DNA of 60,885 nucleotides from Centipeda flueggei ATCC 43531 (GTDB taxonomy: Bacteria; Bacillota; Negativicutes; Selenomonadales; Selenomonadaceae). The position numbers and the translations under genes were made by a program. The DNA lies in assembly GCF_000160695.1 (NCBI RefSeq), contig NZ_GG694006.1, positions 1,093,826 through 1,154,710 of the forward strand. The letters run 5' to 3'. Shown here piece by piece: positions 15,139 through 16,782 of the stretch. Every line of letters begins with the position of its first letter. The first letter of the stretch is position 1. The notes under the pieces are model-generated. The model saw nothing but the letters and a program-made list of their open reading frames with translations. It searched no databases and was not told the DNA's origin.

Positions 15139-15501
15139 TCAGTTCTGCTGTGCAAACGCAGCGCGGTACGTCTGTCCCGCCGCCGTGTTCGCCTGCTGTG
15201 CCTTTGTACTCAGTTCAACCACGTACGCGTCCCCGAACATCTCACGCGACGCCTCCTTGCGGATATCCTCTTCCAGCGAGTGAAGCGAGCGCGCCAGAGA
15301 CTCAATGTCGACCGCATACGCATCTTCATCCATATGAGCCAGACGGCGGATCTGCTCACGCTGTGCAAAATGCTGCGAGCGAATATCGCCGACGTTAATC
15401 CCATCCTGCGCAAGCGTCGGTGTCGCCGTCCGCATAATCAGCGGAACGGGAATCTGCCGCGCGGGATCGTCGAGTATGGATGCAAGTGATAGTACAGCCA
15501 T
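15139..15501 (-). CDS. Hypothetical small protein
   Basis: A 120-residue protein without signal peptide or membrane segment. The N-terminus (MAVLSLASILDDP) is hydrophobic but short. The middle and C-terminus are helical and charged (QREQIRRLAHMDEDAYAVDIESLARSL, then KAQQANTAAGQTYRAAFAQQ), which could form a coiled coil. The start is the ATG at 15501, eight bases after GAGG; a GTG at 15510 is also possible. It stands alone. The upstream 380 bp contains no gene on this strand. I do not recognise the family. Confidence 0.65.
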   Translation of the reverse strand: MAVLSLASILDDPARQIPVPLIMRTATPTLAQDGINVGDIRSQHFAQREQIRRLAHMDEDAYAVDIESLARSLHSLEEDIRKEASREMFGDAYVVELSTKAQQANTAAGQTYRAAFAQQN

Positions 15502-15535
15502 CACAGTCACCTCATTTCCTTATGAGTATTCTGCC

Positions 15536-15717: not shown

Positions 15718-15750
15718 GCTATTGAAATTCATTATCTTATTTGATATACT
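15718..15750 (+). promoter_or_regulatory. Fur-box-overlapped promoter of the orphan small RNA
   Basis: TTGAAA (15722-15727), a 17-bp spacer and TATACT (15745-15750) form a good sigma-70-type promoter. GCTATTGAAATTCATTATC (15718-15736) matches the classical 19-bp Fur box at 15 positions and covers the -35 box, so a bound repressor would block RNA polymerase. No gene follows on this strand before a strong terminator at 15848-15884. Confidence 0.65.
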
Positions 15751-15756
15751 CCAGAC

Positions 15757-15885
15757 AGTTTTTCAGTGGGATTTCTCCATGAGAGGAACTTTCCACACTC
15801 TCCTAAGGATATGCACGCTTCCTCCGCATATCCCACAAATACACAGCAAAAACACCGCACAGTTGCTCACTGCGCGGTGTTTTTG
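15757..15885 (+). ncRNA. Candidate iron-responsive small RNA, about 129 nt
   Basis: This stretch lies between a Fur-box promoter (predicted start near 15757) and an intrinsic terminator at 15848-15884, and has no convincing coding frame. It contains a perfect 8-bp stem, GGATATGC / GCATATCC (15807-15814 / 15826-15833), whose 11-nt loop ACGCTTCCTCC exposes a CU-rich run complementary to Shine-Dalgarno sequences. Another unpaired run, CACTCTCCTAAG, precedes it. CU-rich loops of this kind are known from base-pairing small RNAs in Firmicutes. The convergent neighbours are two hemerythrins, which are iron proteins. By analogy with RyhB, PrrF and FsrA it could repress iron-protein synthesis when iron is short. 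The analogy is inference; promoter, operator, hairpins and terminator are visible. Confidence 0.6.
15848..15884. terminator. Shared terminator of the small RNA and the hemerythrin genes
   Basis: AAAAACACCGCACAGT and ACTGCGCGGTGTTTTT pair around a short loop. T-runs on both strands let it work for the plus-strand small RNA and the minus-strand hemerythrins. Confidence 0.8.
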
Positions 15886-15890
15886 TATGC

Positions 15891-16304
15891 TCATGCCTGC
15901 TGCGCCTCGTCCGCATGGGGCAGCCTGCAGTCTCGTCCTTTGATGTGGTCAAAGAGCCAGCGTGCAAGAAAATCAAGGATGTTCAGCAGGTACTCCTGCT
16001 GGTTCTCATCCACCTTTTCAAGGTCGATCTCGCCGACTTTTTTCATAAAGCGCAGATGCAGGGCACGATGGCTGAAACGATGCGGGTCGCCGACACGCTC
16101 TGCGTATGCCTCCTCGCTCGCAAAATGCGTGCCGGCATACGTCCCCAGCTCTTCCAGGATATCGACGATCTTATCGTATTTGTCCTCTGCTGCGCTCTCC
16201 ATCACGAGATCGTAGCACTCGTTCGTCAGGTCGAACAGCTTCGCATGCTGCTCGTCCACCGAAGCGATGCCCGTCAGATAATCATCCGTAAACTCATACT
16301 TCAT
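15891..16304 (-). CDS. Bacteriohemerythrin A
   Basis: A 137-residue single-domain hemerythrin, a four-helix bundle with a non-haem di-iron site that binds oxygen or senses oxygen or NO. All ligands expected from the family are present: His20, His60 with Glu64 (HFASE), His79 and His83 (HRALH), His120 and Asp125 (HIKGRD). The start is the ATG of MKYEF, preceded by GAGGGAACG; the open frame extends further upstream without a ribosome site. It follows a 64%-similar-looking paralogue by 64 bp, so the two are a tandem duplicate and likely one transcript, closed by the terminator shared with the small RNA. Confidence 0.9.
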   Translation of the reverse strand: MKYEFTDDYLTGIASVDEQHAKLFDLTNECYDLVMESAAEDKYDKIVDILEELGTYAGTHFASEEAYAERVGDPHRFSHRALHLRFMKKVGEIDLEKVDENQQEYLLNILDFLARWLFDHIKGRDCRLPHADEAQQA

Positions 16305-16368: not shown

Positions 16369-16782
16369 CTACTTCGCGGCGGCGGCCTCTTCCTTCGGAA
16401 TACGGCAGTCCATGCCCTTGATATGTCCATAGAGCCAGCGCGTGAGAAAGTCGAGGATGCCGAGCAAATACTCCTGCTGGTTCTCGTCCACGCTGTCCAG
16501 GTCTACCTCGTTCATTTTCTGGATGAAACGCAGATGCTGATAGCGCTCGCTGAAGCGCCGCTCGTACTGCACACGCTCCATATACTCCTCCTCGTGGGCA
16601 AAATGCGTCGCTGCATAGTCGCGCAGTTCGTCGAGAAGCGCAACGATGCGGTCATAACGGTCGACTGCCTCATTGTCCATCACGAGTTCATAGCACTGAT
16701 TCGCAAGATCAAAGAGTTTTCTGTGCTCCGTGTCGATCATGTCAATTTCGGTCAAATATTCCGGTGTCAGTTCATACTTCAT
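16369..16782 (-). CDS. Bacteriohemerythrin B, with one iron ligand changed to Glu
   Basis: A 137-residue paralogue of the downstream hemerythrin, colinear without gaps. Ligands His20, His60, Glu64, His83, His120 and Asp125 are kept, but position 79 is Glu (FSERYQH) where paralogue A and the family have His (FSHRALH). Glu can ligate iron, so the site may be altered rather than lost, and oxygen chemistry could differ. The start is the ATG of MKYEL; seven upstream codons in frame lack a suitable ribosome site. It is the first gene of the tandem pair. The neighbouring Fur-box small RNA suggests that iron supply matters for this locus. Confidence 0.88.
   Translation of the reverse strand: MKYELTPEYLTEIDMIDTEHRKLFDLANQCYELVMDNEAVDRYDRIVALLDELRDYAATHFAHEEEYMERVQYERRFSERYQHLRFIQKMNEVDLDSVDENQQEYLLGILDFLTRWLYGHIKGMDCRIPKEEAAAAK

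Follow-up and report, generated by a model that had tools for sequence, protein, structure and literature searches.

A predicted small-RNA gene with a Fur-type promoter beside two hemerythrin genes

Between a small divergent ORF and two convergent hemerythrin genes, the window (the whole stretch of 60,885 nucleotides that was analyzed) holds a promoter, a structured RNA and a Rho-independent terminator (Table 1). An earlier note on this DNA had taken the region for an orphan small-RNA gene with a Fur-type promoter, and this was upheld: the promoter can be read directly, its -35 element is covered by a 15/19 match to the 19-mer Fur consensus, and the same unit recurs in a family of loci described below. 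To judge from the promoter, the RNA would start ca. 7 nt past the -10 element. The strong terminator claimed in that note was likewise confirmed, and it could also be used by the convergent hemerythrin side.

Table 1. Coordinates of the RNA gene, its parts and its neighbors in the window
Feature	Positions	Strand	Basis or remark
Small divergent ORF, syntenic upstream neighbor	15139-15510	-	YjfB-like by inspection, without Pfam match
Fur-type operator over the -35	15718-15736	+	GCTATTGAAATTCATTATC, 15/19 vs 19-mer consensus GATAATGATAATCATTATC
Promoter TTGAAA-N17-TATACT, TG before the -10 (extended -10)	15722-15750	+	Direct reading; TTGAAA at 15722-15727
15-mer in the Fur-type operator	15723-15737	+	11/14 vs TGATAATNATTATCA
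Small RNA gene, ca. 130 nt	about 15757-15886	+	Folds and family matches; 3' end set by the terminator
5' hairpin of lineage-specific sequence, replacing the AGGCUUU/AAAGCUCU hairpin seen elsewhere in the family	15766-15796	+	Predicted folds
CUCUCCUAA, conserved anti-Shine-Dalgarno seed, predicted unpaired	15798-15806	+	Alignment, fold
Extra 8-bp hairpin with CTTCCTCC loop, insertion private to this genome's copy	15807-15833	+	Alignment
AAAUACACAGC, conserved seed-region tail 5' of the terminator	15837-15847	+	Alignment, family matches
Rho-independent terminator, loop UGCUCA at 15864-15869	15847-15885	+	Terminator reading, family matches
Hemerythrin-domain protein 1 (Hr1), convergent	15891-16304	-	Pfam PF01814
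Hemerythrin-domain protein 2 (Hr2), ribosome site holds GGAGAG	16369-16782	-	Pfam PF01814

Folding of the RNA (15755-15886) gave -47.0 kcal/mol, with a z score of -6.05 that was matched by none of 200 shuffles, and much of this energy comes from the terminator. A promoter scan found two sites against a shuffle mean of 1.6, and the window promoter alone is not more than what chance provides. The Fur box was by itself marginally unusual, which is only suggestive: at a threshold of ≥15/19, the 19-mer matched once in the window and in none of five shuffles, and at ≥14/19 it matched three times (0 to 2 in shuffles), while the 7-1-7 form of the box at 12/15 showed no enrichment in the window (4 matches versus 0 to 8 in shuffles). 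Since the box and the promoter are unconvincing alone, the case for a small RNA rests on conservation.

Conservation within the genus

A BLASTN search of 13 congeners recovered the locus in every one, always with the divergent small ORF upstream and, within the stretch covered, with at least one hemerythrin gene downstream in 12 of them (the exception being L016). In the alignment, the congeneric copies have TATTGAWWTTCATTMTC over the -35 in common, as well as the extended -10, CUCUCCUA, ATACACAGC and the terminator, and TGNTATANT of the promoter is common to congeners and other genera. The earlier note had looked to the conservation of box, loop and terminator in related genomes; the box and the terminator were indeed kept, but the CTTCCTCC-loop hairpin was absent from the 13 other congeneric copies aligned. 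This hairpin does exist, with the arms GGATATGC (15807-15814) and GCATATCC (15826-15833) and a loop holding the anti-Shine-Dalgarno-like CTTCCTCC (15818-15825), but it is not the key element, the conserved anti-Shine-Dalgarno stretch being the neighboring CUCUCCUAA. The sister species (G010) has the same kinds of element as the window copy. In another congener (L011 of G006, minus strand, about 1610-1770), an insertion of ca. 150 nt lies within the variable hairpin and contains at least one inverted repeat recognizable by eye.

A covariance model of the RNA (R2, made from 21 RNA sequences with the promoter excluded) listed two matches in each of the 14 genomes of the genus. In the genome that contains the window (G000), the second, canonical copy (copy 2) lies outside the window at C8:958295-958393, on the 3' side of a TonB-receptor beta-barrel reading frame and on the 5' side of a gene whose best match is thioredoxin reductase. 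The window copy scored 50.6 bits and that of G010 scored 53.5, compared with 98.8 to 119 for 12 congeneric orthologues, 10 of which belonged to the training set. To judge from the alignment, the window copy is a paralogue that has diverged: operator, seed core, tail and terminator are retained, but the 5' hairpin is remodelled and a second anti-Shine-Dalgarno hairpin has been inserted. Because of these last two changes, its target set may have shifted.

Anatomy of the RNA

The minimal form of the RNA has 78 nt and consists of an AGGCUUU-CGUU-AAAGCU hairpin, CUCUCCUAAAAUAUAAUACACAGC and the terminator, while other copies carry extra sequence, in most cases a second hairpin, within the first loop. 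Among 26 distinct sequences, in an alignment fitted to the model, 97.8% of cells pair. The terminator helix of this fitted alignment has changes on both sides in 15 of 15 pairs, and the first (5') helix has three invariant pairs, three with one-sided changes and none with two-sided changes. With two-sided changes only in the terminator, it is the terminator that covariation supports, and the first helix rests on prediction.

Both CTCTCC and ATACACA were found in 39 of 39 distinct model matches, a constancy that is partly due to the construction of the model; three matches judged spurious (L039:325, L093:3017 and L080:1730) were dropped from these motif counts. Folding predicts the seed to be mainly unpaired in both copies of G000, and the conserved working part is, in these models, CUCUCCUAA plus AAUAUAAUACACAGC, left single stranded between the 5' hairpin and the terminator. 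The terminator loop reads UGCUCA in 31 of the 39 distinct copies, though the terminator stems vary freely, and this loop may be a second constant element.

Distribution beyond the genus

The covariance search that the earlier note had suggested proved informative. At an E value of ≤0.001, the RNA-only model R2 (part of whose training set came from promoter-containing searches) matched 129 of 189 genomes of the family, distributed over 18 of 30 genera, and 70 of the 99 genomes of good quality. More than one match, counting partial ones, was listed in 52 of the 129 positive genomes, with a maximum of seven in one genome. Across the class, 114 of 341 genomes matched at an E value of ≤1e-4, 112 from this family and one from each of two other families (G037 and G040). 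As a phylum-wide control we used a third model, built on a model-guided alignment since MAFFT misaligned the variable hairpin; it matched 11 of 398 genomes. Nine belong to this family; the other two, the distant genomes G650 and G680 (E values of 6.6e-4 and 9.6e-4 among 398 genomes), are at chance level and were discarded.

A pattern scan of named genomes returned 19 stretches, including one taken as chance (L032, from an Alteromonadaceae MAG, in which the bases past the pattern are unlike the family). The carriers, oral Selenomonas among them, included Selenomonas noxia, S. infelix, S. artemidis, S. massiliensis (two loci), Centipeda periodontii, Mitsuokella multacida (two copies ca. 1 kb apart) and M. 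jalaludinii (two loci), together with rumen MAGs. Read by eye, the ORFs next to copies other than the window copy and its orthologues are different. A conserved promoter-RNA-terminator unit, carrying a Fur-type box and a seed that stays constant, therefore recurs at loci with different neighbors. The hemerythrin context stressed in the earlier note is limited to the window copy and its orthologues, which implies that the RNA should act in trans.

Other identities for the element were discarded. A cis-regulatory leader of the downstream gene does not fit the intervening terminator or the neighboring ORFs, which are convergent or differ between loci; a coding gene does not fit the minimal copy, which has no ATG, GTG or TTG before its terminator; and a known Rfam family was rejected for want of a match at the gathering score. 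The only match of the window to Rfam was a tRNA.

Operator and regulator

Although R2 holds no promoter, boxes were found upstream of its matches. The best upstream 15-mer reached ≥11/14 against TGATAATNATTATCA in 32 of 37 regions (31 of 36 distinct places, L060 and L088 being one place) versus 5.7% of shuffles; many of these regions come from close relatives or paralogues and are not independent, L019 belonged to the training set, and L074 has the same sequence as a training member. Congeneric loci orthologous to the window copy (copy 1) were left out of this test, except the window and L003. Five regions fell below 11/14. In the window and L003 this is because the model begins too far downstream, past the true start; L075 and L077 reached 10/14 each, and L083 had no box. 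The last of these (G173, C10:168115-168192) is a canonical RNA copy with an upstream -10 and without a Fur-like box, possibly an orphaned or newly regulated copy. Copy-1 boxes are weaker (typically 9/14 in congeners, 10/14 in G010 and 11/14 in the window, with 10/14 for the second copy of G000), and those of the copy-1 orthologues end in T, not A.

When G000 was searched with a box-derived pattern allowing up to two mismatches, 33 occurrences were found versus 4 for a reversed control. A single mismatch was seen in two occurrences, one being the window box and the other a site that precedes the copy-2 box by 24 bases; the copy-2 box differs from the pattern at two positions. Similar boxes lie near the probable starts of two of the five TonB-receptor (TonB-plug) genes of this genome (L130 and L132), and L130 has an additional 11/14 match inside the gene. 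Both of these receptor genes (L130 at C8:953474 and L132 at C8:383742) are apparently split into shorter reading frames, and L132 adjoins a gene that is ExbB-like by inspection.

The genome encodes two proteins of the FUR family, of which one is closest to Fur and the other (L126) to PerR; both were scored as partial translations and fell below the NCBIfam cut-offs. The boxes keep the G and C of the Fur type, the positions that separate Fur from PerR boxes, and the operator points to Fur as the probable regulator. An Hfq gene is present in G000, and Hfq might take some part.

In G037 (L159) and G040 (L160), minus strand, about 1230-1600, tandem RNA copies have long palindromic Fur boxes. They are followed by a third Fur-like box and then a DUF3793-flavodoxin operon. 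The replacement of ferredoxin by flavodoxin is a classical low-iron response, and DUF3793 may be an iron-limitation protein.

Predicted targets

Target prediction, also suggested in the earlier note, was carried out on 637 start sites of G000 (the window plus 800 kb picked before cydA was a candidate) and on stretches of G001 and G040 picked to include cydA. The ribosome site of cydA, which in G000 encodes cytochrome bd subunit I (Pfam) and lies outside the window, ranked 4th of 637, 1st of 284 (G001) and 12th of 314 (G040), and cydA came first among 33, 35 and 28 reciprocal ortholog pairs in three comparisons. The G001 site, GTATTTTATTTTAGGAGGGG, is identical to the perfect complement GTATTATATTTTAGGAGAGC at 17 of 20 positions with one more position G-U, and in G037 the cydA stretch GTGTATTTAATATTAGGAGAG matches two blocks of that genome's own RNA.

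Against full shuffles, the cydA site gave a P value of <0.02 in 18 of 19 RNA-bearing genomes (the 14 congeners among them not being independent), while none of 8 genomes without a listed RNA match reached a P value of <0.05. With the Shine-Dalgarno held fixed, a P value of <0.05 was obtained in 7 of the 19 and in none of the 8; G016 and G022 showed no cydA pairing beyond the Shine-Dalgarno in these shuffles. L221, L227 and L231 were excluded from this test as unclear in RNA status, weak or with a misplaced start, and three cydA matches had no locus. Together, these values make the ribosome site of cydA the best-supported candidate target.

Hemerythrin sites had a P value of ≤0.05 in 6 of 11 cases for Hr2 and 1 of 12 for Hr1, with the Hr2 site of L003 set one codon off and the site of L005 (P value of 0.12) not assignable to either gene. 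Of the two hemerythrin genes, it is thus the distal one (Hr2) whose site is a possible target. As for the iron-rich NarGH of the earlier note, a NarH-like site (by inspection, with ferredoxin domains in Pfam) pairs poorly with the canonical seed and ranked 573rd of 637; it pairs better with the private loop of the window copy (-13.7 kcal/mol). Besides cydA, the top predicted sites include many non-iron genes, and proteins with Fe-S motifs were not enriched among the predicted targets (15 versus 622; P value of 0.73). Exact TAGGAGAG matches before start codons of G000 numbered 14 plus 12, versus 11 plus 14 in the control, and gave no clear iron list.

Proposed function and alternative explanations

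We consider it likely, with a probability of roughly 0.8, that the family represents a Fur-repressed, trans-acting, iron-sparing small RNA. With plentiful iron, Fe-Fur sitting on the box over the -35 would block transcription, as the operator suggests. When iron is low, an RNA of ca. 75 to 130 nt would be made, ending at its own terminator and presenting, in the predicted fold, an unpaired CUCUCC...AAUACAC stretch. This stretch would pair with the Shine-Dalgarno and an AU-rich segment upstream of it on mRNAs of iron and heme proteins and would stop their translation, cydA of cytochrome bd being the best supported. Transcription, Fur control, cydA repression and iron sparing are all deduced here from sequence. 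The iron-sparing role put forward in the earlier note is plausible; the best candidate target, cydA, lies outside the window. A wider proposal, for which the odds seem to us even, is that of an ancestral multicopy iron-sparing family of Negativicutes, independent of RyhB, FsrA and IsrR, in which an antisense of ca. 20 nt would silence cytochrome bd, UGCUCA would be a second constant element and the window copy a neofunctionalised paralogue with two anti-Shine-Dalgarno elements.

It is unlikely, although more probable than the other alternatives, that the window paralogue is functionless and decaying and that only the canonical copy at G000:C8:958295-958393 works: the covariance score of the window copy is about half that of 12 congeneric orthologues, it has lost the AGGCUUU hairpin, and the insertion separates its seed from its tail. 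However, operator, promoter, CUCUCCUAA, AAAUACACAGC and the terminator with its UGCUCA loop are intact, and the sister species keeps the same kinds of element. We find it rather improbable that the RNA is a general anti-ribosome-site agent, a low-iron growth brake on mRNAs with strong Shine-Dalgarno sequences and with no preference for iron proteins. Such an RNA would account for a seed that is simply anti-Shine-Dalgarno, for the many non-iron genes among the top sites, for the lack of Fe-S motif enrichment and for exact seed sites before start codons in no excess over the control, but it would have no need of AAUACACA, which is as constant as the seed among the matches, nor does it explain why cydA came first in all three ortholog comparisons.

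Still less probable is a real RNA that answers to another Fur-family regulator (PerR and peroxide, or zinc) and serves in oxidative stress instead of iron stress. PerR boxes closely resemble Fur boxes, one of the two FUR-family proteins of the genome is closest to PerR, the putative thioredoxin reductase gene lies downstream of copy 2, and one pattern match is upstream of a gene that is ZnuA-like by inspection (L098); against this, the boxes keep the Fur-type G and C, and similar boxes occur near two of five TonB-receptor genes and at the flavodoxin operons of G037 and G040. Finally, a chance Fur-like site next to a bidirectional terminator of the hemerythrin genes, with no small RNA at all, would suit the single marginally unusual box, the chance-level promoter and a terminator usable from both sides. 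The recurrence of the promoter-RNA-terminator unit in many genera at nonsyntenic loci makes this explanation barely credible.

Relation to known iron-sparing RNAs

RyhB and PrrF1/PrrF2 are Fur-repressed iron-sparing RNAs whose seed and structure differ from those found here. RyhB, PrrF, NrrF and FsrA have Rfam families, whereas 10 loci holding copies of the family here matched no Rfam family at the gathering score, which sets it apart from all four. Below threshold, one canonical copy matched NrrF (14.7 bits versus 60, in the terminator part only) and RsaA (22.5 versus 50), and the top match was an unrelated microRNA family (28.5 versus 76). The best reading is that the family works like RyhB, FsrA and IsrR yet matches no Rfam family.

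Paralogues, as in the family here, are described for PrrF in an excerpt of PMC9410917. The same excerpt presents FsrA of Bacillus as an iron-sparing RNA whose C-rich motif binds the Shine-Dalgarno and which needs FbpA, FbpB and FbpC; the likeness lies in a Firmicute iron-sparing RNA with a C-rich anti-Shine-Dalgarno motif. IsrR of Staphylococcus, according to excerpts of PMC12607789 and PMC9410917, is also a Fur-controlled small RNA with single-stranded C-rich regions that lowers iron-protein mRNAs at their ribosome sites. Its C-rich regions number three, and hairpin loops hold two of these (excerpt of PMC9410917), whereas inspection of the fold and the alignment shows a single CU-rich stretch in the canonical copies here, followed by a constant AU-rich tail, between hairpin and terminator; 52 of 129 positive genomes here, moreover, list at least two matches.

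In agreement with the earlier note, which knew of no counterpart in Negativicutes, none of the open-licence literature matches listed had a title naming a Fur-controlled small RNA of Negativicutes, Selenomonas or Veillonella, and the excerpt of a structured-RNA survey with Selenomonadales and Veillonella motifs (PMC8632094) contained none of this kind. Iron-sparing RNAs under Fur control have evolved independently in several groups; the family here would add one that is widely conserved, from a class of double-membraned Firmicutes without a described Fur small RNA among those literature matches. IsrR of S. aureus, which is regulated by Fur and iron, binds cydA mRNA in vitro and lowers a cydA reporter (excerpt of PMC12607789). 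IsrR and the apparently unrelated family here may have come to share this target by independent routes, and cydA offers a testable case of convergence between them.
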